Source of the DNA: an uncultured Nitrospira sp.
GTDB taxonomy: Bacteria; Nitrospirota; Nitrospiria; Nitrospirales; Nitrospiraceae
NCBI GenBank assembly: GCA_902500755.1
Contig: CABVRV010000031.1
Location: 1 to 36,688, forward strand
Length of the DNA: 36,688 nucleotides
Reading direction: 5' to 3'
Shown: piece after piece, positions 8,563 to 25,676 of the stretch
Layout of the letters: every line of letters begins with the position of its first letter
How positions within the stretch are numbered: position 1 is the stretch's first letter
Translations under genes and position numbers: made by a program
The notes under the pieces: model-generated
What the model was told of the DNA's origin: nothing
Database searches by the model: none
What the model saw: only the letters and a program-made list of their open reading frames with translations

Positions 8563-8607
8563 GATGACTTCCTTCCGCATGGATGAAAGATCCGCTGTCT
8601 CATGGAG

Positions 8608-9711
8608 TTATCGTGAAGAATGCCCTCGACCGGCCCGATGCTCGAACAGGACCGGGATGCCGACTGTGCGACCGGCATGAGTTCTTGCCGACTCAATGAC
8701 GTGGTGACCGGGAGCCAGTGAGCAGGCGGGATCGGGCATGCCGGCATCTCCCATGAGATGAAAAGCTTGGCAACGACAGCCGCCAAAATCCAAGGCACGG
8801 CGCTCGCAGGTTCTGCAAGGGTCTGACAGCCACGCCTCCCCACGGAATTTGTTGAATCCTGTCGAATGGCGCCAGATATCCGAGAGCCGGCGCTGCGTGA
8901 CATGCTCGAACTGCAACCCTGGGATCGTATGCGCCAGGTGGCAGGGCAACGCGAGTCCTTCCGGATTGACGACGATGAATCGACGTCCCCATCCTTCCAT
9001 GCAGGATTTGGGGCGGTCCGTGTAATAGTCGGGCGTGACGAAGAGGACCTCCATTTGTCCACGAAGGCGCGCGTTCGCCTCAGCCGCAACCGTTCGCGCC
9101 TGCTCGATTTGCTGACGAGCGGGCAGGAGCGCGTCGCGATTCTTCAATGCCCATCCAAGGTACTGCGTATTGGCCAACTCGAGTCGATCGGCGGAGACGC
9201 GTTCAGCCAGCGCGATGACCTCTTCGATTTCAGAAATGTTTTCTCGATGGAGCACGATATTGAGGGTCAATGGAAGTCCGAGCGAGGTGGCCCACCGCAT
9301 GACGTCGAGTTTGCGGCTGAACGATGGCATTCCGGCGAGACGGTCCGACACGGACCGCCTCGTACTTTGAATGGAGATTTGTACACTATCCAATCCCAGT
9401 GCGCGAAGTCGGGAAAGCCGTTCGGATGTGAGTGGAATTCCGCTCGTGATAAGGTTGGTATAGAGGTCGAACTTGCGGGCCCCCTCGATAAGCAGTTCCA
9501 AATCGTCTCGCAACAACGGTTCGCCGCCTGTGAGGTTGAGTTGAACCACCCCAAGTTCTTCGGCTTCACGAAAGACCTGAATCCAGGTGTCGGCGTCAAT
9601 TTCGTTCCCATGCTCTGCAAGGTCTGACGGATTCGAACAATAGAGACAATGAAGCGGACACCGATAGGTGAGCTCGGCGATCAGCGTATACGGGCGATAC
9701 TCGTTGTTCAC
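8608..9711 (-). CDS. pqqE: PqqE, radical SAM enzyme of PQQ synthesis
   Basis: 367 residues. The radical-SAM motif CPLHCLYC (CxxxCxxC) lies at about 18-25, followed by LNLTGGEPLLRDDL. The C-terminal SPASM region has the expected cysteines (SCMEGWG, LPCHLAH, DPCRTCERR, GGCRCQAFHL). PqqE makes the carbon-carbon bond between Glu and Tyr of the PqqA peptide, using PqqD as peptide chaperone. The start is a GTG whose bases overlap the pqqD stop codon (GTGA), so translation is coupled. The length is normal for the family. It is cytoplasmic. Confidence 0.95.
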   Translation of the reverse strand: MNNEYRPYTLIAELTYRCPLHCLYCSNPSDLAEHGNEIDADTWIQVFREAEELGVVQLNLTGGEPLLRDDLELLIEGARKFDLYTNLITSGIPLTSERLSRLRALGLDSVQISIQSTRRSVSDRLAGMPSFSRKLDVMRWATSLGLPLTLNIVLHRENISEIEEVIALAERVSADRLELANTQYLGWALKNRDALLPARQQIEQARTVAAEANARLRGQMEVLFVTPDYYTDRPKSCMEGWGRRFIVVNPEGLALPCHLAHTIPGLQFEHVTQRRLSDIWRHSTGFNKFRGEAWLSDPCRTCERRALDFGGCRCQAFHLMGDAGMPDPACSLAPGHHVIESARTHAGRTVGIPVLFEHRAGRGHSSR

Positions 9712-9989
9712 GTCACACCTTGAAGCAGGCCACGATCGGCAAGAACGCCGAGAAACTCGCGCACCGCTCGCCTGATTTCTCCGGGAGACGCGTCCACATA
9801 GGATCGAGTGAGATGATCGACCATCTCATCGATCGTCCATTCGCCCGTGCAGAGACGCGCAATCGCCGTGGCAGTGCCGTTCAATTCGAGTCCGGTTTCG
9901 GGGTACAACAATAGGTAGTGGCCGGTACGCCGATCGAACCGAAGGCGAACTTTTGGACTAAGCCGAGGCCTGATGGTGACGAATATCAT
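9708..9989 (-). CDS. pqqD: PqqD, PqqA-binding peptide chaperone
   Basis: 93 residues from the ATG at 9989. It carries the PqqD pattern PRLSPKVRLRFDRRTGHYLL, then YPETGLELNGTATAI, then the winged-helix part with TIDEMVDHLTRSY. This RiPP-recognition-element fold binds the PqqA precursor and presents it to PqqE. The frame is open to 10022; the chosen ATG places the first residues as in other PqqD proteins and overlaps the end of pqqC by about 30 bases. Its stop overlaps the pqqE start. Confidence 0.92.
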   Translation of the reverse strand: MIFVTIRPRLSPKVRLRFDRRTGHYLLLYPETGLELNGTATAIARLCTGEWTIDEMVDHLTRSYVDASPGEIRRAVREFLGVLADRGLLQGVT

Positions 9990-10725
9990 CAGCAGTCCGC
10001 GTTGGTCCTGACCCCGTTTCAATATAGACCATGGAAAGATGATCGAGCATGGTCCACAAAATGTCGGCCTTCTTGATCAAGGCCCTCACGCATCTTTCTT
10101 GAAGGACATAGGTAGTCGCGTGTTGCACCACGAATTCCACGGCCTGGCTCGAATCGCGCGTTGCCCGAGCGATGCGCAACTGAAAATACTCCAGGGACTC
10201 CGAACGAACCCAGGGATAATGTTGTTTCCACGCCTCGAGGCGCCGCGCCATAAGGGAAGGAGCAAACAATTCCGTGAGCGACGAGGCCACGGCTTCGAGA
10301 AGCGGAACGGCACGGACGAACTGGACATACTCGTCGCACGCGAGCCTGACTCCCGGGAGTACGTGTCGGCAGCTCCTCACTGCTTCGGCGTCGAGGCCTA
10401 CGCCTCGGGCCAATTCAAGCCATAGGGCGAGTCCGCCTTCCCCTTCCTGTTCGCCATCATGGTCACGAATGCGGCGGAGCCACATCCGGCGAAAAGCCGG
10501 GTCATCGGACTTTGCGACAATGAACGCATCCTTGATGGGAATTCTCGTTTGATAGTAGTAGCGGTTCAGCACCCACTGTTGGAGCTGTGTCTTCGTCAAC
10601 TTTCCGCCATGCATCAGCTGATGGAAAGGATGGTGGTCATGGTAGCGACGAGCGCCTTCCTGCTTGAGCCATTCGATAAAGGTCTCCTTTGAGAGCCGAT
10701 CCGGATGGTGCTTTTCCTTCATCAT
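9958..10725 (-). CDS. pqqC: PqqC, pyrroloquinoline-quinone synthase
   Basis: 255 residues from the ATG at 10725, whose bases overlap the pqqB stop (ATGA). Conserved blocks include RYHDHHPFHQLMHGGKLTK, QQWVLNRYYYQTRIPIKDA, RIRDHDGEQEGEGGLALWL, LAPSLMARR-like LFAPSLMARRLEAW, and LRIARATRDS. PqqC carries out the last, oxygen-dependent ring closure and oxidation to PQQ without a bound metal. The length matches the family (about 250). An in-frame start 39 bases further upstream is possible but would overlap pqqB more deeply. Confidence 0.95.
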   Translation of the reverse strand: MMKEKHHPDRLSKETFIEWLKQEGARRYHDHHPFHQLMHGGKLTKTQLQQWVLNRYYYQTRIPIKDAFIVAKSDDPAFRRMWLRRIRDHDGEQEGEGGLALWLELARGVGLDAEAVRSCRHVLPGVRLACDEYVQFVRAVPLLEAVASSLTELFAPSLMARRLEAWKQHYPWVRSESLEYFQLRIARATRDSSQAVEFVVQHATTYVLQERCVRALIKKADILWTMLDHLSMVYIETGSGPTRTADDIRHHQASA

Positions 10726-11648
10726 CACACGAGGATCCCCATCCCGTCCCATGCGACTTCCCATCCTGCCGCCTCGACCAATGTTCGTTCATAGGAATCT
10801 TCCCGTAAGATAGGATTGGTGTTGTTGATGTGGATGAACACCCGGCGACGAGCGGTCATCTCCGAAAGCATCGCCAGGCTTCCGCGCGATCCACCAACGG
10901 GCCAATGCGCAAGGTCTTCCGCCGATTTTTCGAGGAATCCCGGCGCGGACAGCTCATCACTCGACCAAAAGGTTCCGTCAAACATGACGCAATCGGTTTC
11001 TTCAAGCGCGTTGAGAACGGAGGATGTGATCCGGCCGACAGCCGGAAAATAGGCGAGCACTCCCCCGTTGGTCGATTGTCGAAATCGCAGTCCCACATTC
11101 ACATCCGGCTCACCGGAGGAAACGAGTCCTTCCAAATGGATGGGAAGTTTTCCCGGGACGGCCACGGCCGTGACCGTCAGTCCTGACGGTCTTCCATCTG
11201 CATGCAACAGCGGTTCTTCAACATCGAGCTTCAGCGTCCGCCACGTGACCTGTTCGGCAAATCGTTGGAGTGTCCGATACAAGACATTGCCTTCGGTGAA
11301 TCCGCGACGCACAGAGTCCGTGGCATAGAGGACAAGCCGGTGATTCTCTCGGAGCGTGAGGAGACCCAAACAGTGGTCCAGATCTCCGTTCGTCAACAAG
11401 ATTGTGTGGATCGGGGAAGTACGTGACTCATGCGGATGAAGAGGAGCACAACTCTCAATCTGAGCACGAATGTCCGGAGAAGCGTTGATGAGAAACCAGC
11501 CACCATCCCCCGCGCTGAGGCTGATGGATTCCTCCGTCCGTGGGCTCGCGGCGATGAGTCCTTTTCGCATGCCCATGCAATTCACACACGCGCAGTTCCA
11601 CTGTGGAAAGCCGCCTCCGGCAGCCGATCCTAAAACTCGGAGAAGCAT
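10725..11648 (-). CDS. pqqB: PqqB, metallo-beta-lactamase-fold PQQ synthesis protein
   Basis: 307 residues of the PqqB type: MLLRVLGSAAGGGFPQWNCA at the start, then CVNCMGMR, the metal-site loop LLTNGDLDHCLGLLTLRE, FDGTFWSSDEL, and the end block RRVFIHINNTNPIL. PqqB is an iron-dependent hydroxylase-like member of the metallo-beta-lactamase fold that modifies the tyrosine-derived ring of the PQQ precursor. The ATG overlaps the pqqA stop (ATGA) and the stop overlaps the pqqC start, so the whole cluster is translationally coupled. Confidence 0.95.
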   Translation of the reverse strand: MLLRVLGSAAGGGFPQWNCACVNCMGMRKGLIAASPRTEESISLSAGDGGWFLINASPDIRAQIESCAPLHPHESRTSPIHTILLTNGDLDHCLGLLTLRENHRLVLYATDSVRRGFTEGNVLYRTLQRFAEQVTWRTLKLDVEEPLLHADGRPSGLTVTAVAVPGKLPIHLEGLVSSGEPDVNVGLRFRQSTNGGVLAYFPAVGRITSSVLNALEETDCVMFDGTFWSSDELSAPGFLEKSAEDLAHWPVGGSRGSLAMLSEMTARRRVFIHINNTNPILREDSYERTLVEAAGWEVAWDGMGILV

Positions 11649-13439: not shown

Positions 13440-15740
13440 TCAGTTCCTTTCACGACTCTCATTGTCCACCTGTATGTCCAGCACACCCTGCAACTTCACC
13501 ACGTCGACGTCCACACCCTGCGTCCCACGTCGAAAAGCGAGATCGACGACCGCTCCACCCACATGCAGCCGCCGCAGTTCCAATCGGTCCAGAAAATTGG
13601 GTAACATCGGCCGCTTGATGCGGAGCCGCTTCTCGAACCCATCCGGTGTCAAGCCGAGTAAAGTCGTCAAGAGAAACGGAAGCGCGCCGGAGGCCCAAGC
13701 CTGCGGATGACAGGCAACGGGATAACTGATGGGGACTTCGTACTCCGTCCGGCCGAAACCGCAAAACAATTCCGGAAGCTGATGCGCATGAAAATGGTAG
13801 GCGGCGTCGAACAGCCCGTGAAAGATCCGCAGAGCATCCACATCGTGTCCATAGCGGCGGAATCCCGCCGCTAGGATCGAATTGTCGTGCGGCCAAACCG
13901 TGCCGAGGTGATAGCCGATGGGGTTATAGGCTCGCGCCTTTGACGACAGGGTGCGGACGCCCCATCCGTTGAACATGTCCTCAGCCATGAGTCGCCTGAT
14001 CGTCTGTTCGGCTCTGTCTTGGTCCACGATGCCGGTCCACAGGGCCTGCCCCGCATTGGAAGAAATGACGGCGGCCGGCCGCTCGTCCCCCTGCAATGCA
14101 AGCGCGTAACAATCCTCATCCTCCATCCAAAAATCCCGGTTGAACCGCTCACGCAGCCGCTGTGCCTCTCGAATCAGGCGATCCGCTCGATCTTGGTCGC
14201 CGGCCCGCTTGAACAACTCCGCGATCCCAAGTTTGGCGGCATAACCGTAGCCCTGCACCTCAACCAGCGCGAGCGGCGGCACAGCGACCTCGCCATCGGC
14301 ATTCACAATCGCGTCGCCCGAGTCTTTCCACCCCTGATTAATCAACTTGTCTTTCGACCGGCTGGTATAAGTGAGATAGGCTTCCCCATGCCGGTCGCCA
14401 TAGGTATCCATCCAGGACAGTGCCCGTTCGATGGAAGCCCGCAATTCGTCGAAGAGGCTCAGAGAGCCGGCCCATGCCGCATGTTCCGCGATCAGCATTA
14501 AGAACAGCGGAGTGGCATCGACCGTTCCATAGAACGGGGTATGGGGAATCGCGCTCAGGTTCGCCATCTCTCCGATCCGTAATTCATGGAGAATTTTTCC
14601 CGGCTGCTCGTCCTGCCACTGGTCCTCTTTCGCACCTTGATATTTTGCCAATAGGCGCAAAGTTTGCTCGGCTATCCGTGGATGATAAGCCAGCATTTGC
14701 CAGGCGGTGATCAGGCTGTCGCGTCCGAACAACGCGACGAACCATGGCACTCCAGCCGCAAAATAGGTTTCGTTCCCCAAGTGTGTGCGCAGGACCCGGA
14801 GTCCGCGGAAAGAGCGTTCCATGAGTTGATCGAGGGCCGATCCGTTGGTCACCACCTTAGTGACATGCGTCATCCAGGCCTGCGTTTCCCGTTCGAGGTC
14901 GCTATCCAGTCGGCTGAAGTCCTCCGGACCGGGGCTTGAACGGCCGGCGGCCGCCCGGCCCTTGGATTCGCCGATCACGAGCGTGACATCGATTCGCTGT
15001 TGGCCGCGGGGGCTCAAGCGCACGACGAACTCCGCCGTCGTGCGCTGCCGCTTGGTGGGGGGCGGGTCAAAATAGACCGTCATTGTGCGAACAATCCCGT
15101 CTTTGCCGTCATAGGAGAAGCACAATCGGTCGCCCTCCCAGGACGGAGGATGGAGCGTGCCCAAGCGCTTGGGCAACAGCCCCCGAACGGCGAAGAGATC
15201 TTCGAAGGCGGATTGAATCGTCAATGTAACGGGAAACTCGAGCGCCTGAAGTGTGAAGTTCTGGATGTACAGGCGGTCGCGCAGCGCCGGGGTTTCGTTG
15301 TCGATGAGGCGTCGCCACGTAATGCCGAGTTCCTCCGCATCAAGGACATGCCCGCCCATCAGCTCAATTCTGGAGTTCGTCAACGCAAAGACACCGATCG
15401 CGCCCTGGGCCGACGAAGCCGACAGCTGAGCCGGTTTCCTTCCAGCCAGTTCAATTTCATAGCCGTTCACATAGCGACAGTCGTGATAATAGAGACCCAT
15501 GCCATGAGAGTCCTTCAGGGGCACGCTTCCGTCCGGCCGTGCCACGAAGAACACATTCTCGTGCTTGATGACAATCGCGTCGGCGAGGCTGTCGGCCGTG
15601 GCCGGGCGGGCCTTCGTGAGTGTTTCCTCCCGCCGATCATCCTTGGATTCTGCCGCCTGTAACAACGTACCGGGCCAGAGCGGCAGGGACGCCGGCCAGA
15701 CGAGAGAAAAACGAAGCAACGAACGCCGATCGATCTTCAT
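13440..15740 (-). CDS. Debranching-type amylo-alpha-1,6-glucosidase with Tat-like leader
   Basis: 766 residues. The N-terminus (MKIDRRSLLRFSLVWPASLP) has a twin arginine followed by a hydrophobic stretch and LQAAES, resembling a Tat signal. A GDE_N_bis-type beta domain follows (VFFVARPDGSVP, GLYYHDCRYVNGYEIELAG). The (alpha/alpha)6 catalytic barrel of the glycogen-debranching/GH15-like class follows, with WFVALFGRDSLITAWQ, INQGWKDSGDAI and YNPIGYHLGTVWPHDNSI. These enzymes split alpha-1,6 or related glucosidic links in glycogen-like or trehalose-like substrates. The ATG at 15740 has AGAGGTG six bases upstream; the frame is open another 72 bases. Most relatives are cytoplasmic, so the leader is unusual. 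Gene order with SemiSWEET supports a sugar-scavenging role. Confidence 0.85.
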   Translation of the reverse strand: MKIDRRSLLRFSLVWPASLPLWPGTLLQAAESKDDRREETLTKARPATADSLADAIVIKHENVFFVARPDGSVPLKDSHGMGLYYHDCRYVNGYEIELAGRKPAQLSASSAQGAIGVFALTNSRIELMGGHVLDAEELGITWRRLIDNETPALRDRLYIQNFTLQALEFPVTLTIQSAFEDLFAVRGLLPKRLGTLHPPSWEGDRLCFSYDGKDGIVRTMTVYFDPPPTKRQRTTAEFVVRLSPRGQQRIDVTLVIGESKGRAAAGRSSPGPEDFSRLDSDLERETQAWMTHVTKVVTNGSALDQLMERSFRGLRVLRTHLGNETYFAAGVPWFVALFGRDSLITAWQMLAYHPRIAEQTLRLLAKYQGAKEDQWQDEQPGKILHELRIGEMANLSAIPHTPFYGTVDATPLFLMLIAEHAAWAGSLSLFDELRASIERALSWMDTYGDRHGEAYLTYTSRSKDKLINQGWKDSGDAIVNADGEVAVPPLALVEVQGYGYAAKLGIAELFKRAGDQDRADRLIREAQRLRERFNRDFWMEDEDCYALALQGDERPAAVISSNAGQALWTGIVDQDRAEQTIRRLMAEDMFNGWGVRTLSSKARAYNPIGYHLGTVWPHDNSILAAGFRRYGHDVDALRIFHGLFDAAYHFHAHQLPELFCGFGRTEYEVPISYPVACHPQAWASGALPFLLTTLLGLTPDGFEKRLRIKRPMLPNFLDRLELRRLHVGGAVVDLAFRRGTQGVDVDVVKLQGVLDIQVDNESRERN

Positions 15741-15808
15741 GGTGCACCTCTTTGGTGTCGCAGTATCATCACAAGCTCGACAATGACCCCGATTGCGGCA
15801 TTGTCGTA

Positions 15809-17128
15809 TCAAGGGGCCGGCCTCCCTTCATACGTAGCCCGTTCATCCTCAAGAGTCATGACGCCGTAGACCAGGTACCCGTTGTAGGCGCGGGCCGTTT
15901 CCCGCACCCAGCCCATGCTTACCATCGTCAACATGACGCAACCGGCGATCGCGATGAGAATCTTCTGGCTCGCGCGATCCTGGCCGCTCGCGCCGCCGGT
16001 CTTCCACCAGGAAGCATGACCGGCGAAGGAACGCAGGAAGAGGATCCAATTCAGCAAGCCGAAGAACACGAGCGCCGCGATCGCGAAATATTTGTTCGGC
16101 TGCATTTTGCCGAACGGATTGATCGCCGCGTCGGTCAGCCGGGAAAATACGGGAACGTGTTGTAGTTGATACGGCATGGCGAAGACGACCCAGGCGACGA
16201 CGAGCACGACCAAGGACGACGGCATGATCAGGCGGACGACGCTGCCCGGCTCGCTGCACGAACGGAGGATGCGAAGAATATACGAAGAACCCAGCACGGC
16301 GATCAGCCCGTAGAGCAAGGCAACGAGATCAAACAGCCATGAACGGGCGCCGAGCATGAGGGTGTGGAAAGCCTGCGGTTCGGCGTACCGCACATGCAGC
16401 AAGTATTGGTAGCCAATCACCGGCATGATCAGCAGCGCCCCGAAGCCCACGGCGAAGCACACACCGCCGGCCCAGCGATAGAAGCGACGCTCTTCCTCTT
16501 CCTGGGAGCGCAGGAACGCGGCACCACACAAGGCCGCGAGGGCAAACCCAGCCCAGGTCAAGTTTCCGAACCACCGGTGGAGATCGAGATCGATCATGGT
16601 CGGATTCAAGATATTGGCCCATGCCGAGTCGGGAGGGTGGGGCGTCAACATATAGGACGCGGTGATATCGATGAAGAACATCGCGACCACCGCGCAGACG
16701 GCGGCGAGCCAGCCGAATGCGAGATGCACGCGTCTGCGCCATCCCGCGAGGGACGACCAAACCCAGAGGTAGTACCAAAGATAGGCGAAGACGGCTTCGC
16801 CGAGGAACAACACGCCTTCCAGCACGAACGGCCAGAACATGATCCGAAAGATCTTGTGCCAAAACCGAGGCCAAAAGATGTTGAGCGTGAAAATAAACGA
16901 CACTCCCAGAAACGAGATCGTGGCGGTGCTCAACACCAGAACGAACGCGATCATGCCCCCCAGCCGCCGATACCGAGGCTGATCCGTCACGTACGCCAGC
17001 GTCGCTACCACCGCGCCGATCACCGCGCTGCCGACGACCAGCGTGGCAAAAAGACTGTGGCTCAGCGCCGCCAAGGCGATGGCAACACGGCCGTACATCA
17101 TTGGCATGTTGAGCGCCTCAAGGCCCAT
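15809..17128 (-). CDS. CydA-like membrane subunit with conserved Glu pair (second bd-like protein of the ACIII locus)
   Basis: 439 residues from the ATG at 17128 (GGAG seven bases upstream). About ten membrane helices. Similarity to CydA of cytochrome bd is visible at the N-terminal His (AALSHSLFA, His24), the acidic pair in WPFVLEGVLFLGEAVF (Glu104 and Glu111), a second His in LNPTMIDLDLHRWFGN (His184), and the C-terminal block GWVRETARAYNGYLVYGVM, which aligns with the GRQPW region of CydA. In cytochrome bd such residues bind hemes b and carry protons to oxygen. No Cys heme motifs or copper ligands are seen. It overlaps the preceding CydA-like gene by 11 bases. Proposed role: oxygen-reducing or heme-bearing partner of the ACIII genes upstream. 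No CydB is present. Confidence 0.75.
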   Translation of the reverse strand: MGLEALNMPMMYGRVAIALAALSHSLFATLVVGSAVIGAVVATLAYVTDQPRYRRLGGMIAFVLVLSTATISFLGVSFIFTLNIFWPRFWHKIFRIMFWPFVLEGVLFLGEAVFAYLWYYLWVWSSLAGWRRRVHLAFGWLAAVCAVVAMFFIDITASYMLTPHPPDSAWANILNPTMIDLDLHRWFGNLTWAGFALAALCGAAFLRSQEEEERRFYRWAGGVCFAVGFGALLIMPVIGYQYLLHVRYAEPQAFHTLMLGARSWLFDLVALLYGLIAVLGSSYILRILRSCSEPGSVVRLIMPSSLVVLVVAWVVFAMPYQLQHVPVFSRLTDAAINPFGKMQPNKYFAIAALVFFGLLNWILFLRSFAGHASWWKTGGASGQDRASQKILIAIAGCVMLTMVSMGWVRETARAYNGYLVYGVMTLEDERATYEGRPAP

Positions 17129-18377
17129 GGAGTTTCTCCGAACCCTGTCGAGGCTGACGATGCGCGTCGACCTGCGCTCCGGATCGATCCATCGCGGGTT
17201 GCCTGGCCTCATCCTGGAGTGAGATCACGTTACGCACGGTATCCGGACGGCGCGCGGTCTCTCGGATAATACCCATCGTGAGGTATGTCAGCACCGCAAC
17301 GACCGCCAAGGCGGTTGACAGGTGTCGAATGACCGGTCTTCGGTGCCATTCCGCCGGCGAGACGTCGGTGAACAGGGTGCGGGATCGGTACAGTGCCACG
17401 GCGCTCAGCGCCACGAGGGCAAAGGTCCACATGCGCCGCAGGTCCGGATGGCCGACGGACAGCACCATCGCCAACGCAAACAAGCCGGCAGCTACAGCGC
17501 TCCACCGCCCCGGCTTCCCGGTCGACAATGCGTTTTGAAGCCACAGATGACTGCCGAGGAATAACGAGCCGATCAGCAGAAATTGAGCATAGATCCAGGG
17601 CTGATAGGGGCCCTGCGTCAATTGTCGATAGGCTTCCGGCGCGGACGCGTTGACTGCCATGGCGTAGAACAGACCACTCAGCGGCTGAATCATCAGCATG
17701 ATGAATCCGACCAACAGGCCCGCCTTCAACAGACGCACATAATAGTCGACGTCCTCCCCTCGCGCGGCGGAGAGCCGCCACGCTGCATACCCCGCCACGA
17801 CATATCCCGCCATGACAAGGTTCCCCAAAAAGCGATGCACGACCAGAGGGGCCCAGGTCGGATTTGCGAGGCGGCTCCATGCATCGTCCCCCGTCGCCGG
17901 AGTAAGCATGTACGACCCGATTCCGTCGAGCACGGCGACCCAGATCAATATGAGCGAGGCCGCGAGGAATCCGAGCATCCGATGAATGTGTGGACTCCTC
18001 GCGCGCAAGGCCTCCCAATAATGGTAGTAGGAATAGAGCGCGAAGAGCTGCAAGAGGAAAGCGATCATCGCGACGAAGATCGGGTACCGGAATCGGTTGA
18101 ACAAGTGCGCGTTGGTGAGCGGGAACAGACCGATGAACAGATCCACCATGATGACCGCCAACACTAAGCTCGCCGTGTAGGTGACGATCGTAAACCGCGT
18201 CATCGATCGCGCGGCCTCAAGCAACCAGGGCCGTGTTTCTCCGACCGATTCGGCCAACGGCGCGAGTATCATAAATCCGACTCCCAACCCCGCGAGTAAG
18301 ATATGCAGGAGAGCGAACAGTCCGATTGCCAGACTGTTTCCGATCAGCGGAAATTCGATGGCAGGAAGTGTCTGCAT
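17118..18377 (-). CDS. CydA-like membrane subunit lacking the Glu pair (first bd-like protein of the ACIII locus)
   Basis: 419 residues from the ATG at 18377; a GTG at 18398 is an alternative. About ten membrane helices. The N-terminal His is present (LFALLHILLAG, His25), as is the second one (NPTWAPLVVHRFLGN, His181) and the C-terminal GIIRETARRPDTVRN, so it is a distant paralogue of the next gene. In place of the acidic pair it reads FVAMIAFLLQLF, so the oxygen-site Glu residues of CydA are missing. It may therefore be a structural or quinol/heme-relay subunit, taking the place of CydB. The soluble tail is Gln/Arg-rich. It starts 39 bases after the ActD-ActE fusion gene and overlaps the next gene. 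Confidence 0.72.
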   Translation of the reverse strand: MQTLPAIEFPLIGNSLAIGLFALLHILLAGLGVGFMILAPLAESVGETRPWLLEAARSMTRFTIVTYTASLVLAVIMVDLFIGLFPLTNAHLFNRFRYPIFVAMIAFLLQLFALYSYYHYWEALRARSPHIHRMLGFLAASLILIWVAVLDGIGSYMLTPATGDDAWSRLANPTWAPLVVHRFLGNLVMAGYVVAGYAAWRLSAARGEDVDYYVRLLKAGLLVGFIMLMIQPLSGLFYAMAVNASAPEAYRQLTQGPYQPWIYAQFLLIGSLFLGSHLWLQNALSTGKPGRWSAVAAGLFALAMVLSVGHPDLRRMWTFALVALSAVALYRSRTLFTDVSPAEWHRRPVIRHLSTALAVVAVLTYLTMGIIRETARRPDTVRNVISLQDEARQPAMDRSGAQVDAHRQPRQGSEKLHGP

Positions 18378-18416
18378 AACAATATAGGATCGACGCACCG
18401 GCTACGAACCGTCCTG

Positions 18417-19436
18417 TTACGGTTGAGACAATGATTTGACGTATGCGACCACGGAGCGCCGTTGTTCAGCGGACATTTCTCCTTTAAAGGGTGGCATCAC
18501 ATCCCTCCCCTCAATGGCGAGCCCATTCGTCACCGTATCGTAGAGTGCTTCTTCGGATAATGCCTGTACGTCTGGAGCGAGCAGGTCCGCTGGTGGCTCC
18601 TTCAAATAGGCGACGACCGGACCGTTGCCGGTCCCATCCCGTCCATGACAATGAGAACAGTTGATACGAAAGAGTCTGGCTCCTTCATCGAACACCTGTT
18701 GCGTGGAGAGCGGCTTGAGCACCGACCGGTTGTCGCGCGACACCGATCCTACGGGCGAATGGAGGCGCGGCGCTTCCTGCGGCTGATAGGACGGTTGCTC
18801 TTGCATGTCGCGTGAACAAGCCTCTACCCCGCACAGAAGGGAGGTCGCGACGAGGACAGCGGCGGTCGCCTGTCCTTCTCGCTCCGCTCCATGCGGCGCC
18901 GACAACGTCGGATGACGATACCGGATTTCCAGCGCGCCGGCCCGTTGCAGAAGTGCCTGTACTGCCTCGAGCCGAGCCGAATCATGGGTCAGAGAGAGGA
19001 CCACCTCAATGAGCCCATCATCGATGCGTGGATCGCGCTCGGTAGCGTTTCGACTTTCCGACCGAAGCCGGATGAGCATCGCTGCGAACGTCGTGACGAT
19101 CGCCACGAGCATCATCATTTCAAAGGCGATAATACCGACGACCGGAGGGGCCACGATCGGTTTTCCTCCCGTCACGATAGGGTACAAAAGCGCGGTGCCG
19201 GCGGCGACCATGACGCCGAGGCCGATGCCCAGCAAACCGGCTATGATCGCGATACGGTGCAATGGGACACGTGCGGGACGCAATAAGGCCGCCTCATGAA
19301 GCGGCAACGGCGAGAGGACCTCGACCGCGTCCTCCCGCACGCCCGCGTTCCGAAGCTCGTCGACAAGCGATTCGGGATAACCGGATGGCTCGAAGAGAGC
19401 CAGCACTGTCATCTCATTTACCGTGATGGGCGCCAT
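18417..19436 (-). CDS. ActD-ActE fusion: DUF3341 membrane subunit joined to a monoheme cytochrome c
   Basis: 339 residues in one frame. Residues 10-175 are an ActD/DUF3341 domain: a ferredoxin-like start (LFEPSGYPESLVDELRNAGV) and two membrane helices around YPIVTGGKPIVAPPVVG. Residues 191-207 are a hydrophobic stretch ending in a lipobox-like LLCGVEAC. Directly after comes the ActE signature SRDMQEQPSYQPQEAP, and then a cytochrome c domain with the heme site CSHCH (260-264) and a Met ligand in DVMPPFKG. In other ACIII loci these are two genes, ActE being a lipoprotein; here the second signal sequence sits inside the fusion. The start has GGAAGGA nine bases upstream and overlaps actC by 23 bases. 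ActE would hand electrons to a soluble carrier or oxidase. Confidence 0.85.
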   Translation of the reverse strand: MAPITVNEMTVLALFEPSGYPESLVDELRNAGVREDAVEVLSPLPLHEAALLRPARVPLHRIAIIAGLLGIGLGVMVAAGTALLYPIVTGGKPIVAPPVVGIIAFEMMMLVAIVTTFAAMLIRLRSESRNATERDPRIDDGLIEVVLSLTHDSARLEAVQALLQRAGALEIRYRHPTLSAPHGAEREGQATAAVLVATSLLCGVEACSRDMQEQPSYQPQEAPRLHSPVGSVSRDNRSVLKPLSTQQVFDEGARLFRINCSHCHGRDGTGNGPVVAYLKEPPADLLAPDVQALSEEALYDTVTNGLAIEGRDVMPPFKGEMSAEQRRSVVAYVKSLSQP

Positions 19437-20748
19437 GAACGAGTCCTTCCTTTTCTTCCCAAATAGAAATTACCGGGACAACCTTGACGGCCAGGGCGTA
19501 GAGAAGGACCGCCAACGCCAATGATCCGACGATGATGGTCATTTCCACCCAGGACGGGAAATAGCTTCCCCAATTGAACGGCAATCGTGGATAGGACAAG
19601 GGGGGCACCAAAATCAAGACACGCTCGATGTACATTCCAATGTTGATGAGGACGCCGACGATCATGACGCCCAACGGCCATCGACGAAAGGCCGGGCTTG
19701 TCAGTGTGGCCAGCGGGATGATGTAAATACAGGTCGCCATGAACCAAAAGGGGACAGCAAAGGGACCGCTCAATAACGCGTCCACCACCCACATGTGATC
19801 GGGAATGTTCGCGTACCAGATGGTGAGCAGTTCGGCGAAATACAGATAGGCCAGGACCAGCGTCGTCACGACCAACAACTTACCGATTTTGTCGAAATGC
19901 TCCGGCGTGATATAGCTCTCGAGGTGATAGATCTTGCGAAGAACGTAGAGCCCGATCGCGACCAGTCCCACCCCGGAATGCACCGCGCCCACGACGAAAT
20001 AGGGCGCGAAGATCGTGGAGTGCCAGGCGGGGACCAGCGACACGCCGAAATCCCATCCGACAATGGAATGGACCGACACCATGACCATCACGATCAACGG
20101 CGTAATGATCCGCAGGGCCGTTTCGAGGACGTGCCATTGGTTCTGCGTGCCGGTCCATCCGAACGAGAGCACTCGGTACAGCGGCCTGCGCCAACCGTCG
20201 ATCCGTTCCCGCAGCAGCGCAAAATCAGGAATCAGCGGCAGATACAGATAGATGGTGCTCGCAGTCGCATAAGTGAACACGGCGATGGCATCCCACATGA
20301 GCGGTGACCGAAAATTCGGCCACAGCTCCCGCTGATTGGGATAAGGAATTAGGTAGTACCAGCGCCAGACGCGCCCCAGATGGTAGAAGACGAACAGGGT
20401 GGCGATCATCAATGAGATGAACGTCATCAATTCAGCGATTCGCGTGACGGGCCTTCGCCACTCTGCCTTGCTCAGGCGCAGCACGCCCGAGATGAATGTG
20501 CCTGAATGACTCGCACCGACCCAGAAGATGAACGACGCGATATAGACCGCCCAGAAGATCGGCGGGTGCATATTGGTTTGCCCGATGCCGGTTTGGACCT
20601 GATAGGTCCAGGCGCCGGCGCCGGCCGCCACCAGGCATACCAGCACACCAACCAACAGAAAATAGGTCCAGTGGGTCGTGAGCAGGGGCGCCAAGAGATC
20701 TTGATTGATCTTCGGAATTTGTTCCCACCGTCTCTTCTCTTGTTCCAT
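19414..20748 (-). CDS. actC: ActC, NrfD/PsrC-like quinol-site membrane subunit of alternative complex III
   Basis: 444 residues, about ten membrane helices of the NrfD family. Typical blocks are FWAVYIASFIFWVGASHSGT, ISGVLRLSKAEWRRPVTRIAE, HLGRVWRWYYLIPYPNQREL, MVMVSVHSIVGWDFGVSLVP and FAPYFVVGAVHSG. ActC/PsrC proteins hold the periplasm-facing quinol site and pass electrons to the iron-sulfur subunit. It lies 50 bases after the four-cluster ferredoxin gene and overlaps the ActD-ActE fusion. The length is normal for ActC. Confidence 0.9.
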   Translation of the reverse strand: MEQEKRRWEQIPKINQDLLAPLLTTHWTYFLLVGVLVCLVAAGAGAWTYQVQTGIGQTNMHPPIFWAVYIASFIFWVGASHSGTFISGVLRLSKAEWRRPVTRIAELMTFISLMIATLFVFYHLGRVWRWYYLIPYPNQRELWPNFRSPLMWDAIAVFTYATASTIYLYLPLIPDFALLRERIDGWRRPLYRVLSFGWTGTQNQWHVLETALRIITPLIVMVMVSVHSIVGWDFGVSLVPAWHSTIFAPYFVVGAVHSGVGLVAIGLYVLRKIYHLESYITPEHFDKIGKLLVVTTLVLAYLYFAELLTIWYANIPDHMWVVDALLSGPFAVPFWFMATCIYIIPLATLTSPAFRRWPLGVMIVGVLINIGMYIERVLILVPPLSYPRLPFNWGSYFPSWVEMTIIVGSLALAVLLYALAVKVVPVISIWEEKEGLVHGAHHGK

Positions 20749-20798
20749 CTCCGGCTGTCCTTCCCCGCTCCAGGATCCTCAGCATGCAGCACTGTCTC

Positions 20799-21521
20799 TT
20801 ATGTTATCCGTTTTAAATACGTGATGGCGGGATGGGTCCCAAGTGATTCCAGTAGATGAAAGCCCCGGTCCTGCCGCGCCAGTTTCGACACCTGGCTGTC
20901 CGGATCGTTCCGATCCCCGAAGACGAGCGCTGACGTGGGACACGATTGAACGCAGGCCGGCGCAATCTCTCCATCCCTCACCCGACGACCTTCCTTCTCA
21001 GCCAGTTCTTTCTTCTCGCGAATCCGCTGGACACAAAACGTGCACTTTTCCATGATGCCGTTCTGCCGCACCGTCACGTCGGGGTTGAGTTGTTCCTGGA
21101 GCGGAGGATCCCAATGGGGATCGAACCAATTGAATTGCCTGACGGTATACGGACAGTTGTTCCCACAATAGCGGACGCCGATGCATCGGTTGTACACTTG
21201 CGCGTTGAGCCCGTCCGGTGTGTGGTAGGACGCATAGACCGGACAGACCGGTTCGCAGGGCGCGTCCCCGCATTGTTGGCACAGGACCGGCATGAATTTG
21301 ACTGTGACGTCGGGATACTCGCCCTCCCAATAGCGCTCGATGCGGATCCAGTTGATTGCGCGACCTTCTGCAGCTTCCTGCTCTCCCGAAATACGAATGT
21401 TATTTTCCGCATGGCAGGCTACGACACAGGCTTCGCATCCTGTACAGCGGTCAAGATCGATTGCCATTTCCCATTTGTAGGGACCGGGAACAGAGGACGA
21501 GGACTGTTTGGGTTCGGTCAT
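20799..21521 (-). CDS. ActB2-like four-cluster iron-sulfur subunit
   Basis: 240 residues with four cysteine clusters: CTGCEACVVAC, CQQCGDAPCEPVC, CIGVRYCGNNC and CTFC with a later ACVQSCP. This is the NrfC/PsrB/ActB2 pattern, a wire of [4Fe-4S] or [3Fe-4S] clusters between the membrane subunit and the catalytic-type subunit. There is no signal peptide; export with the Tat-bearing partner is the usual route. In many ACIII loci this domain is fused to the molybdopterin-like part as one ActB; here it is a separate gene. The ATG has AAAGGAG, whose bases include the stop codon of the preceding gene, so the two are coupled. Confidence 0.9.
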   Translation of the reverse strand: MTEPKQSSSSVPGPYKWEMAIDLDRCTGCEACVVACHAENNIRISGEQEAAEGRAINWIRIERYWEGEYPDVTVKFMPVLCQQCGDAPCEPVCPVYASYHTPDGLNAQVYNRCIGVRYCGNNCPYTVRQFNWFDPHWDPPLQEQLNPDVTVRQNGIMEKCTFCVQRIREKKELAEKEGRRVRDGEIAPACVQSCPTSALVFGDRNDPDSQVSKLARQDRGFHLLESLGTHPAITYLKRIT

Positions 21522-21524
21522 GGC

Positions 21525-23762
21525 CTACTCCTTTCCGGAACCGCGGATCCACGTGTTGATCCGATCGATGCCGATCAGATCCCGCATTGCGTGCATCTCT
21601 CGTTGCTCGATCATCGTGAGTGATCCTGTTCGTCCGGTGGCCTCGATGCGCACGCGAGTCGCGGCCGTTGCCAGCCGACCCGAGTCACGGTCGAACAGCG
21701 CCCCCAACAGGGCCAGCGGATTGACTCCGCGATTGGCAGCATACCGTCCATAAGTCCGATGGCCCTGACCGATGGGAACAGCGATCAGGTCGGGACGGAT
21801 TCCAGGGAAGTGAACGGCCGGTATGTCGAGGAAGCCGTGCGGTGAGGTCACGCGGATCAGGTCTCCTTGTCGAATACCTCGCGACATGGCTGTCTTGGGA
21901 TTGATTTCAGCCCAGGTTGCCCAGACCACCGTTGTGAGAGGATCGGGCATTTCCTGGAGCCACGGAAGGTTCGCGCCTTCGCCGTACCCTAGAGCGAGCG
22001 AGGGATACGGGTAAAAGTAGAACGGAAATTCAGCGGCATCACCGTCGAACAGAGCCGATTCATATTCATAGCCCGGCGAACGACGGTCCTGCCCAGGAGA
22101 CTGGACCCCGCGCGCCGGCCCCCACCAACCGCCCTCTTTGAGTCGCTCAATCCACGCGGTTTCAAACCAATCCGGCTCGTTGGTTCGATTTCGCTGTGAT
22201 AACAAGGCTTCCCAGTTCGATCTGATGGCGTCGCGGATGGTTTCATGGGATAAAATCTCGGGCACGCCTTCATCGATACTCCGACCGACTTCCATCATCA
22301 CATCGCCGACGGCTCGAGTGTCATAGAGAGGCCTGACCACCGGCTGGGCGAGCCCTACGGCCGGCACCCTCCCTTCGTCGAGGTGCTCATGATCACTCCA
22401 GGCTTCCAGAGAAACGTGATCGGGAAGAATCAGGTCTGCCAGATCCGTAGACTCATCCATGAAGGAGTTGAAACTCACGATGAATTCCGCGCGCTCGAAG
22501 AGCCGGCGCACAGGGATCGACGGGGGAATCGTGTGTAGTGGATTGCAATGATGGAGATGCACCAGAGGAAACCGGCCGGCATCCGCCTCGTTGATCAGCT
22601 CCAAAAAGCCCCGCTCGCTGATCGGAGCTTCCTTCTGGTCGAATATCGACGGGTTCATGCTCTCAAAGAATCGCACCCCACCCGGCTTCCCCACCCTGTC
22701 TCTGATCATGTTAAGAGCGTTGACCGCGGTAAGCGCCGCCGTTCCGTTGGTATGGGCCGATGCCGGGCCGCCGGCGATCGCTACGGGCGCTTGAGCCGAA
22801 CTGAATTCGACCGCGAGCCGTTCGATATCATCGTAACCGACTTCGGTTCGCCGAACGATTTCGTTCAAATCGAACGCCTTAAAGAGGTCTGGGTACGCGT
22901 CACTATTCCCGACGTCGGTCGACGTGTCCTGCCTTGTGAGCAACAGCTGTCCTATTCCGATCGCGAGCAAGCCTTCTGTGCCGGGATGGATGGGAATCCA
23001 TCGATCGGCGTTCGCCGCCGACAGAGACATGCGGGGTTCGACTTGGATGAGGCGGCCCCGGACGGCTGGGCGTCCTTGTCGCATCTGGCCATAGGCAATC
23101 CCCATTGCCACCGGAGAGCGCCAATGTTCGAGCAGCGGAGCGCCGAACGACAAAACGTAATCGCTTTCTGCAAGATCGAAATCAGGCACCACTTGCCGTC
23201 CGAACCTCGCGTCAACGGCGCTGATCAATGCATGATCGACCAAGGGATCATGGATGACCAGAGGCCCGCCGATGTGATCCATGAATGCTTTCACGACCTG
23301 CGCGGTCGTGCCTGAGAGGGGTCCGCTCAGCATCAAAGCATGTCCGCGATGAGTCTGTAGACGCTCGCGCCAACTTGCGATCCCCTCATCCCAGGAGATC
23401 GGCTCAAACCTTCCCTCGCCTCGCTTGCCGGCTCGCCTCAACGGACCGCGAATGCGATCAGGGTTGTATAGCCGTTGCAGACTCGCGTGACCCCGAGCGC
23501 AGAGTTTTCCCCGATTGATCGGGTGACTCGGATTGCCCTCGATTTTCTTGGCTCGTCCTTCCATGACTCGAACGAGAATGCCGCATCCGGCAGGACATTC
23601 CCCGCAGACAGACGCATACCAATCGGCAACCCCTGGCACGATCTGATCGTCCGGAAGAAGATAAGGGACAAGCTGGTGAACATTTTCTTTACATCCAGGG
23701 ATGAGCGAGCCGGCTGTGGTTGCACCGGCCAACTTGAGGAACGTTCGTCGTCGAAGATCCAC
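21525..23762 (-). CDS. ActB1-like molybdopterin-oxidoreductase-family subunit, Tat-exported, with Cys cluster motif
   Basis: 745 residues. It begins with a Tat signal (RRRTFLKLAGATTAG) and a lipobox-like LIPGCKEN. An N-terminal [4Fe-4S] motif follows: Cys53, Cys56, Cys60 and Cys88 (CGECPAGC, then GKLCARG). The middle region (DFDLAESDYVLSFGAPLLEH, SADVV-like positions, NPSIFDQKEAP, LILPDHVSLEAWSDHEH) matches the ActB1/PsrA type. In characterised ACIII the B1 domain carries no molybdenum cofactor; no clear Cys/Ser metal ligand was recognised here. The start is GTG, with TAG as the preceding in-frame codon and GGAGG six bases away. Proposed role: periplasmic scaffold and electron relay between the pentaheme cytochrome and the iron-sulfur subunit. 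Confidence 0.87.
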   Translation of the reverse strand: MDLRRRTFLKLAGATTAGSLIPGCKENVHQLVPYLLPDDQIVPGVADWYASVCGECPAGCGILVRVMEGRAKKIEGNPSHPINRGKLCARGHASLQRLYNPDRIRGPLRRAGKRGEGRFEPISWDEGIASWRERLQTHRGHALMLSGPLSGTTAQVVKAFMDHIGGPLVIHDPLVDHALISAVDARFGRQVVPDFDLAESDYVLSFGAPLLEHWRSPVAMGIAYGQMRQGRPAVRGRLIQVEPRMSLSAANADRWIPIHPGTEGLLAIGIGQLLLTRQDTSTDVGNSDAYPDLFKAFDLNEIVRRTEVGYDDIERLAVEFSSAQAPVAIAGGPASAHTNGTAALTAVNALNMIRDRVGKPGGVRFFESMNPSIFDQKEAPISERGFLELINEADAGRFPLVHLHHCNPLHTIPPSIPVRRLFERAEFIVSFNSFMDESTDLADLILPDHVSLEAWSDHEHLDEGRVPAVGLAQPVVRPLYDTRAVGDVMMEVGRSIDEGVPEILSHETIRDAIRSNWEALLSQRNRTNEPDWFETAWIERLKEGGWWGPARGVQSPGQDRRSPGYEYESALFDGDAAEFPFYFYPYPSLALGYGEGANLPWLQEMPDPLTTVVWATWAEINPKTAMSRGIRQGDLIRVTSPHGFLDIPAVHFPGIRPDLIAVPIGQGHRTYGRYAANRGVNPLALLGALFDRDSGRLATAATRVRIEATGRTGSLTMIEQREMHAMRDLIGIDRINTWIRGSGKE

Positions 23763-23812
23763 CTACATCCTCCCTCCAGGATGAACAGTACCCATTCATG
23801 ACCGCTGCCGCT

Positions 23813-24376
23813 TCACTTATGACAGGTCAGACAGTCGAGCGATCCCCCTTGTTGTCGATGGCAGGACAGACACCATCCCATTTCGAAGCTCGAAGCCCTG
23901 GGTGTGTGCGGCATCTCCTCCACTCTGCCATGACAGTGGACACAGTCCACTCCATGATGGAGATGCATCTCATGCGTAAAATAGACGAAATCCGGAAGGC
24001 GCTGGAGCCGGATCCACTGAATCGGCGTCCCATTTTCCCAATACCCCAGAAGTTTCTTGGTTTCGGGTGTTTCTTCCCCGAGGTTTTGGTGGCATCCCAT
24101 GCAGAGCTGCATGGACGGGACACCGGCGACGGATGAGACATGCGCATAGCGATGGCAAAACAGACAGGATATCTCCAATTGACCGGCATGGAATTTGTGG
24201 CTGAAAGACACGGGCTGAATGTCCTGTGCCGAACTGTCGGCGGCCCCGCTGGCATACAACAATCCTACGACCAGCGCGACGCCTCCGCAGACAAGGAGAA
24301 TGATCGCCGCTTTCCCGACGGAGCTCCATGCAAAGGGTATATTTGTCATCCTCTTTATGAAATCTTCCGTTGTCAT
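23813..24376 (-). CDS. actA: ActA-like membrane-anchored pentaheme cytochrome c
   Basis: 187 residues. One membrane helix (AIILLVCGGVALVVGLLYA) anchors a periplasmic domain with five CxxCH motifs: CLFCH, CMGCH, CVHCH, CLSCH and CLTCH. Extra His residues (FSHKFHAG, FTHEMHLHHG) are likely sixth ligands. Five hemes and a single N-terminal helix are the hallmarks of ActA in alternative complex III; the related QrcA has six. The start used is the ATG at 24376; a GTG at 24382 and an ATG at 24355 are alternatives and none has a strong ribosome binding site. It is the first gene of the ACIII cluster, 50 bases before the B1-like gene. Confidence 0.88.
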   Translation of the reverse strand: MTTEDFIKRMTNIPFAWSSVGKAAIILLVCGGVALVVGLLYASGAADSSAQDIQPVSFSHKFHAGQLEISCLFCHRYAHVSSVAGVPSMQLCMGCHQNLGEETPETKKLLGYWENGTPIQWIRLQRLPDFVYFTHEMHLHHGVDCVHCHGRVEEMPHTPRASSFEMGWCLSCHRQQGGSLDCLTCHK

Positions 24377-24438
24377 TATCACTGGTCCAATTCCCGCGTG
24401 CTGCGGAGTAGGTCACGAATGTGATGACCAAGACGTGA

Positions 24439-24990
24439 TCAGCGCTTCTCGCTGGAACGCTTGAGGAAGTCAGCCAGTTCGCTCGCATGAGCCTCCGTTT
24501 CGGCGAGAATTTCAAGAAGGATTTCTCGCGTAATTAGATCCTTCTCGCCGATCTCCCGAATCAAGGCGCTGTATGCCTCCACTTGCCTCCGCTCAAGCAC
24601 CAGATCCTCGATGACCATCTCGGTCAGTGAGGTGCCTTGTTCGGGATGGACACCGATTGCGGCGGCCTTACTCGCGAGCTCCTGCAAGTCAAAAATCGGC
24701 ACGCCGCCGAGCTGTTGGATCCGACCGGCCAGCTGATCGGCATGGTTCAGCTCCTGGTCGGCATGCTGTTCAAATTCCGTCTTGAGGCTCGGCGAGAGGA
24801 GAGACACCGCCATATAGGCATGTTGCTTGTATTGCAGGTAGCTTGCGATTTCCGTCGACCTGAGGCGATTCAGTGAACCGGCGATTTGCTGCGGCTTAGC
24901 CAGGTATTGCTTGGTCACTGCCCCTTGCGCGATTGCGTCTCGAACCTGTTCGTCCGTGCCGACTGCCTCATACTGCATAGTTGGTTCCAT
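24439..24990 (-). CDS. Ferritin-like / bacterioferritin-type protein
   Basis: 183 residues, a four-helix bundle of the ferritin class. Metal-ligand patterns are present: NRLRSTEIASYLQYKQHAY, EFEQHADQELNHADQLAGR (ExxH type) and LVLERRQVEAYSALIREIGE, with a last ETEAHASELADFL. It may store iron or detoxify iron and peroxide. The ATG has AGGAG nine bases upstream. It lies 62 bases upstream of the pentaheme cytochrome gene on the same strand, so it may be transcribed with the ACIII locus and help to supply iron for its many hemes and clusters; that link is an inference. Confidence 0.85.
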   Translation of the reverse strand: MEPTMQYEAVGTDEQVRDAIAQGAVTKQYLAKPQQIAGSLNRLRSTEIASYLQYKQHAYMAVSLLSPSLKTEFEQHADQELNHADQLAGRIQQLGGVPIFDLQELASKAAAIGVHPEQGTSLTEMVIEDLVLERRQVEAYSALIREIGEKDLITREILLEILAETEAHASELADFLKRSSEKR

Positions 24991-25147
24991 GGTCGTTTCT
25001 CCTCTTCACAATGAAATGATTGGGTCGAGATTATTCTGTCCACACCACCCTGCCGTCGTCGTGTTGTTCAGTTGCAGATAACCCATCATCCGTTTGAGGT
25101 GAGTGACATCGGATGAAGATGAATATAGGTAACAGTCCAGTAATCGT

Positions 25148-25676
25148 TTATAGATAGGCGATCTCCTCTCGAGGGATGGCACGCAGTCGTTCGGTCAAGC
25201 GACTATTCTCGTCGTAATCCACCGGGCAATCGATGACGGCCGGTCCCGGCTGCCTCAGGGCCTCGACCAGAATAGGCGCCAGTTCCGAAGACGCGTTGAC
25301 GCGATAGCCGACGGCGCCGAAACTTTCCGCATAGCGAATCAGATCGGGATTGCCGAAATCCACGAACGCGCTACGACCGAACTTTAGTTGCTGTTTCCAG
25401 CGAATAACTCCGTAACCGTCGTCTCGCCAAATCAGCACGACGATCGGAAGACGCAGTCTGACCGCCGTTTCCAGTTCCTGTGAGTTCATGAGAAACCCTC
25501 CGTCACCGGTGACGGCCACCACACTTCGCTCGGGATACATGTCGCGTCTCGATGAAGCGAATGCTCGAATCCACCAGGGCATCCATTAAGTCCAGATTCT
25601 CCTCGCCGGGTAGGCCGAAGGCGAATCGCACACCCTGCCGTTCAAGACAGCGAACAAATAGTTCGGCCGAGGTCAT
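25148..25676 (-). pseudogene. Acetolactate-synthase-type ThDP enzyme gene with its middle deleted
   Basis: From the ATG at 25676 the minus strand reads MTSAELFVRCLERQGVRFAF and then GLPGEENLDLMDALVDSS, the N-terminus of an acetolactate synthase-like enzyme. About 43 codons on, around 25541-25548, the sequence switches, in a different frame, to the C-terminal ThDP-binding domain: YPERSVVAVTGDGGFLMNSQ, then ELETAVRLRLPIVVLIWRD and DYDENSRLTERL. A whole enzyme has about 550 residues; roughly 350 from the centre are missing and the two ends are out of frame. The longest open frame (to 25582) has no sensible start. The gene is dead; it marks a precise internal deletion. Confidence 0.85.

Follow-up and report, generated by a model that had tools for sequence, protein, structure and literature searches.

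Alternative complex III without ActF, co-encoded with a putative CydAA'-type oxygen reductase: a likely quinol-to-oxygen route in a probable comammox Nitrospira

To what does an alternative complex III (ACIII) hand its electrons when the genes directly behind it encode two CydA-like membrane proteins? ACIII of the Rhodothermus or Flavobacterium type associates with a caa3 oxidase. This ACIII–caa3 association is cited in PMC9386147; in Nitrospira, an ACIII has been reported for N. marina and noted for Ca. N. nitrificans (PMC8115632) as well as for further marine species (PMC10579370), and bd-like oxidases are regarded as the principal terminal oxidases (PMC10579370). A locus that constantly pairs one of them with a quinol-oxidising complex would be a clean system for measuring electron donor and stoichiometry. 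The window analysed here, i.e. the whole stretch of 36,688 nucleotides, is the entire contig C31; the draft genome to which it belongs comprises 3.83 Mb in 203 contigs. Seven ORFs on its minus strand between 15809 and 24376 make up the locus in question (N5a and N5b are labels used here for its first and second CydA-like protein):

23813..24376, minus strand: ActA, periplasmic pentahaem cytochrome c (ORF, Cytochrome_C7, five CxxCH)
21525..23762, minus strand: ActB1, molybdopterin-oxidoreductase-like, with a twin-arginine leader and a CX2CX3CX27C iron–sulfur motif (Pfam, PDB comparison, motif count)
20799..21521, minus strand: ActB2, iron–sulfur subunit (Fer4 families; three cysteine motifs in 16/16 sequences)
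19414..20748, minus strand: ActC, quinol-binding NrfD-like membrane subunit (PDB ActC chains; quinol-site residues)
18417..19436, minus strand: ActD–ActE fusion, an ActD domain with a monohaem cytochrome c behind it (PF11821 and PF13442)
17118..18377, minus strand: N5a, 419 aa, probable A' subunit replacing CydB (PF01654, ligand table, model)
15809..17128, minus strand: N5b, 439 aa, probable oxygen-reducing subunit (PF01654, ligand table, model)

The original prediction had named these seven genes, their range, a gap of 39 bases and an overlap of 11 bases, all of which proved exact when checked against ORFs and Pfam: the gap lies between the ActDE stop (18417) and the N5a ATG (18377), and the overlap between the N5b start (17128) and the N5a stop (17118). 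Separate transcription of the parts gained no backing: a scan of positions 15300-25200, which is weak evidence either way, found no excess of promoter-like sites (3 versus a shuffle mean of 4.0) or terminator-like sites (9 versus 8.0), and no terminator-like site between ActDE and N5a. Behind N5b lies a glycogen-debranching-like enzyme (13440-15812), with a 4-base overlap when its ORF is taken at full length; among related loci (given below as L numbers), this gene directly follows N5b in L010, lies some 2 kb away in L035 and is unmatched in L011 and L012. A ferritin-like gene (24439-24990) precedes ActA and is matched also in L011 and L033, i.e. in no other compared locus, and pqqB, pqqC, pqqD and pqqE for PQQ synthesis are found on the minus strand at 8608-11648, all above the NCBIfam cut-offs.

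Is the first part of the locus really an ACIII? Pfam detects NrfD in ActC, Fer4 in ActB2, molybdopterin and Fe4S4 families in ActB1, and PF11821 (ActD, E=3.4e-24) plus a cytochrome c within a single ORF. Among solved structures, ActC is closest to four ACIII ActC chains (1.5e-84 to 2.4e-76), with ActF chains at 9.1e-14 or weaker, and comparison with solved structures also confirms ActB1. A Qrc menaquinone reductase was considered and rejected: three subunits receive Qrc names from NCBIfam, yet with scores below cut-off (QrcA 92.7 bits against 180, QrcB 287.8 against 440, QrcC 248.7 against 400), and ActC clearly belongs to ACIII. The ORF list and Pfam reveal a single NrfD-like ORF and no ActF at the locus, a point absent from the original prediction. 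By its sequence, the locus is an ActF-less ACIII, a label that we use because the absence of ActF has already been published for ACIII of Nitrospirales (PMC12342949).

At the quinol site of ActC, the His/Ser/Asp/Asp set (R. marinus positions given in PMC8076601, with the numbering transferred by alignment) is kept in 16/16 sequences. In the N-side channel of ActC, 12 of 13 residues do not vary in any of the 16 sequences and D197 is replaced by E in four; among the six P-side channel residues, E338 is replaced by H in 13/16 and E326 by D in six, and E394 deviates only in the broken copy L043, where the ActC frame (8044-9126) is interrupted by stops and an ActD match was not found in an otherwise complete operon. 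Five CxxCH motifs are present in ActA in all 15 sequences counted, including that of the window. ActB1 carries the CX2CX3CX27C motif in 15/15 sequences, its cysteines being missing from four aligned ActB chains of ACIII in the PDB; the same motif has been reported for the split ActB1 of iron oxidisers (PMC4643136). The ActD–ActE fusion is full-length in 10 sequences, again including the window; of the six other loci read, four (L040, L042, L045 and L046) encode ActD and ActE in distinct ORFs.

The two CydA-like proteins both match Cyt_bd_oxida_I (PF01654), at 4e-17 and 2.6e-9, each above the curated cut-off. For a closer look at their cofactor sites, N5a and N5b were aligned to E. coli CydA in 19 rows apiece (18 distinct records, since L023 and L014 are one and the same), with the roles of H19, H126, H186, E445, K252, E257, E99 and E107 being those assigned in the bd-oxidase literature. 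No row of either protein deviates at positions H19, H126, H186 and E445; the quinol-loop residues K252 and E257 occur in none of the 19 rows of N5a or N5b and are retained in the two canonical CydA proteins of the host genome, and other CydA-like proteins of the host (L003-L006) have Ser at the E445 position, unlike N5. The channel glutamates E99 and E107 separate the two subunits, as they occur in 19/19 rows of N5b and in 0/19 of N5a, which has A/G and Q/M/L at these positions; in N5b, the spacing between E99 and E107 is one residue shorter, as it is in one canonical CydA of the genome (L002). Because only N5b keeps both channel glutamates, it is probably the oxygen-reducing subunit, and N5a probably substitutes for CydB. 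M393 is missing in both proteins, with the N5a alignment gapped around there. In E. coli CydA, haem b558 has Met393 as its sixth ligand, so that the entry haem of N5a and N5b would differ from that of E. coli.

AlphaFold2 models, each built from seven sequences, reached a mean pLDDT of 81 for N5a and 71 for N5b, the latter being a weak model. In Foldseek searches, ten CydA-side chains of bd oxidases rank first for both proteins, CydB-side chains following at ranks 11 to 20 for N5a, and the TM-scores by query length over the top ten are modest (0.47 to 0.60 for N5a, 0.42 to 0.53 for N5b). The models thus confirm membership in the CydA family and nothing beyond. With CydB missing at the locus and K252/E257 lost in all 19 rows of each protein, the pair falls outside canonical CydAB. 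The OR-N classes of bd-like oxidases reportedly stem from Murali et al. 2021. With two CydA-like subunits directly downstream of ACIII, the gene arrangement matches the description of the CydAA' oxidase OR-N5 in PMC12342949, which makes the pair a probable OR-N5.

How constant, then, is the partnership of the two halves? The pairing as such is already known, having been published in 2025 for Nitrospirales relatives: actABCDE with a split actB and without actF/G was described for 47 genomes, almost all of which have the CydAA' oxidase (OR-N5) directly downstream (PMC12342949, ISME J 2025). Our survey covered 396 Nitrospirota genomes taken from a larger group, with at most four candidates scored per genome. 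Close N5b relatives (56 to 100% identity) occur in 16 of the 396 genomes, with the next match dropping to 31%, and close ActC relatives (66 to 100%) in 15, every one of them among the 16; here the two genes lie on the same strand with 3.5 to 3.7 kb between their low ends. In the sixteenth genome (G337), a contig of 3671 bases ends inside ActE, just upstream of N5a. A further 12 genomes have distant ActC only (24 to 47%), without close N5b. The order ActA-B1-B2-C-D/E-N5a-N5b is seen in 15 genomes, which include the window and a named MAG (L011); L041 is cut in ActB1, and L014/L023, L015 and L016 later in the operon. L034, L037 and L039 were dropped as duplicates of L010, L012 and L013, whose contigs have equal lengths, and L016 because of stops within the translated range. 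Among the seven named loci with an N5b relative, five are MAGs labelled Nitrospira sp., one an uncultured Nitrosospira (isolate NOB2) and one a Candidatus Manganitrophaceae, and L046 (G183) is a complete copy from the same class but outside the order.

Occurrence of the pair mostly away from ACIII, which the original prediction had named as the outcome that would speak against it, was not what we found, as 15 of 16 copies are adjacent and the sixteenth is cut by its contig end. Our data thus support the CydA-like pair being a constant partner of this ACIII. Conserved adjacency across genomes rules out a chance neighbourhood, and spread by plasmids was considered as well and found no backing, as a tblastn search for N5b across 72,556 plasmid records gave no hit at E 1e-5. 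Constancy also bears on whether the locus might encode two separate enzymes, with ACIII reducing a soluble cytochrome c pool from which the CydA-like pair draws its electrons, the two having no direct contact. Bd-like (OR-N) oxidases are indeed treated as cytochrome c oxidases (PMC10579370, PMC10839748), and the gene trees of the two halves differ (see below); we nevertheless regard such a division as rather unlikely, given that no close N5b relative was found apart from ACIII in the 396 genomes (again with up to four candidates scored in each) and that ActE immediately precedes N5a wherever a fetched locus extends far enough.

What else can occupy the slot behind ACIII became apparent from more distant loci. 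Five of the 12 distant ActC loci were fetched (L047 to L051), and ten of their ORFs were run against Pfam. In L048, SCO1, COX1 and COX2 follow ActD and ActE, being the sole oxidase genes among the ORFs examined; thus, the slot can hold a haem-copper oxidase within the same phylum. This bears out the original idea of a bd-like pair standing where a haem-copper oxidase can also be, since COX1/COX2 of L048 fill the very same slot. It also bears on a reading that denies the CydA-like pair any oxidase role and makes it a membrane anchor or proton-translocating partner standing in for the missing ActF. The lack of ActF at the locus and of both channel glutamates in N5a would fit such a role; N5b, however, retains the active-site ligand positions and both glutamates, and, COX1 aside, L048 with its COX set likewise has no ActF-size ORF in the interval from ActC to the COX genes, so that we consider the anchor role improbable.

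The genes of the operon do not all seem to have the same history. Identities between the window and L010 are uneven, at 92% for ActC, 84% for N5b and 50% for ActB1. For ActC, a clade uniting the window with L033, L010, L011 and L035 is rejected (AU p 1.2e-5, where this and the following p values are optimistic, as the groups were picked after the identities had been seen, and where the genus of L011 is not established); instead, L012 from another genus joins the first four with support of 99/99. The N5b and N5a trees have the clade with L035 and without L012 at 100/99, and reject the ActC-type clade (p 4.4e-7 and 1.4e-5, respectively). ActA rejects the grouping of L010, L011 and L035 (p 0.005), its best tree still uniting all five, if weakly (56/70); ActB2 rejects the ActC-type clade (p 0.016) and not the other (p 0.23); and for ActB1, the five-member genus-type clade is compatible with the data (AU p 0.097). 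L041, L043, L014 and L015 were excluded from the trees where present, and the distant loci L047 to L051 from both the identity table and the trees. Since the grouping obtained with ActC is rejected by the N5a/N5b trees and vice versa, our reading is that single genes or blocks have been exchanged inside a conserved operon, which would make it a mosaic. Such conflict speaks against a simple joint acquisition and would qualify the published view that oxidase and ACIII were probably gained jointly; nor does separate exchange point to a rigid complex inherited as one. Neither 'recombination' nor 'mosaic' occurs in the main text of PMC12342949, and no title on such an exchange appeared among the literature matches listed (titles only); we do not claim priority.

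In which kind of organism would this locus operate? The genome encodes AmoA, above the NCBIfam cut-off, and a 943-residue stretch of its nxrA matches the PDB nitrite oxidoreductase subunit A at 1263 bits. Because both amoA and nxrA are present, the host is probably a comammox Nitrospira; the 'nitrite oxidiser' of the original prediction was right as to nitrite oxidoreductase and incomplete as to the genes for ammonia oxidation. Its 'no CydB' likewise applies within the locus but not to the organism, which has two canonical CydA–CydB pairs elsewhere, on C36 and C1. Two further CydA-like pairs were noted on C23 (L003, L005, L065) and C56 (L004, L006), with a bc-type cytochrome b sitting between the C23 pair. 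In this assembly of about 94% completeness, which makes gene absences provisional, no COX1 match exceeded the cut-off, a weak COX1-like L055 falling below it and having no NCBIfam match. The presence of nitrite and ammonia oxidation genes would accord with the original suggestion that ACIII runs backwards during nitrification, passing electrons from cytochrome c to quinone, and reverse flow has been discussed for other Nitrospira complexes (PMC6606698). A constant oxidase partner, however, points to forward flow to oxygen, the bc-type cytochrome b of the host would be available for the reverse direction, and no result of our analysis supports a backward ACIII, which thus seems very improbable.

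Overall, we favour the reading that the locus is a quinol-to-oxygen route of comammox Nitrospira, in which an ActF-less ACIII is co-encoded with a CydAA'-type (OR-N5) oxygen reductase, and we hold this to be reasonably probable. Quinol would be oxidised at ActC, whose site residues are in place, and by analogy with solved ACIII the electrons would pass the iron–sulfur clusters of ActB2 and ActB1, then the five ActA haems, and so reach ActE with its single haem. Because the CydA-like pair has lost the quinol-loop residues, electrons would enter it from the periplasmic side, with oxygen being reduced in N5b and N5a taking the place of CydB. That no COX1 match in the host genome exceeds the cut-off is in keeping with this reading; the lack of Met393 in both CydA-like proteins, the conflict between the gene trees and the weak N5b model count against it. 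The ACIII and CydA-like halves are likely to associate, at least transiently, and a fixed physical supercomplex of the seven proteins is plausible. A more far-reaching version, which we put forward tentatively and think doubtful, is that all seven proteins belong to a single, permanently assembled quinol:oxygen oxidoreductase, where the pair lies against ActC in the position of ActF and N5b receives its electrons straight from ActE, i.e. a bd-type respirasome kept together by selection despite one-by-one exchange of subunits between genera. If true, this would be a respirasome unlike the solved ACIII–caa3 kind. No biochemistry of OR-N5 was found in the literature searched.

Compared with ACIII–caa3 of the Rhodothermus or Flavobacterium type, the window has ActC, the ActB fold, ActA, ActD and ActE in common, but it differs in its split ActB with an extra iron–sulfur motif, in lacking ActF and in having a CydA-like pair instead of COX genes. 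In Nitrospira moscoviensis, complex III genes are likewise clustered with bd-like proteins, for which a III–IV supercomplex of bc and bd-like proteins has been proposed (PMC6606698); its complex III is of the bc type, unlike the ACIII of the window, and a comparable bc cluster is found on C23 of the host. The terminal oxidase complexes TO_3 and TO_4 of Candidatus Manganitrophus also bring together cytochrome bd-like proteins and components of complex III or of an ACIII-like kind (PMC9040806), and the Manganitrophaceae locus in our set (L015) is cut by its contig end just before N5a. Closest of all are the Nitrospirales systems with ACIII and the OR-N5 CydAA' (PMC12342949), which share the split ActB1/B2, the lack of ActF and ActG and the CydAA' directly downstream. 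From these, the window differs in nothing essential and thus represents another such genome, with ActD and ActE fused.
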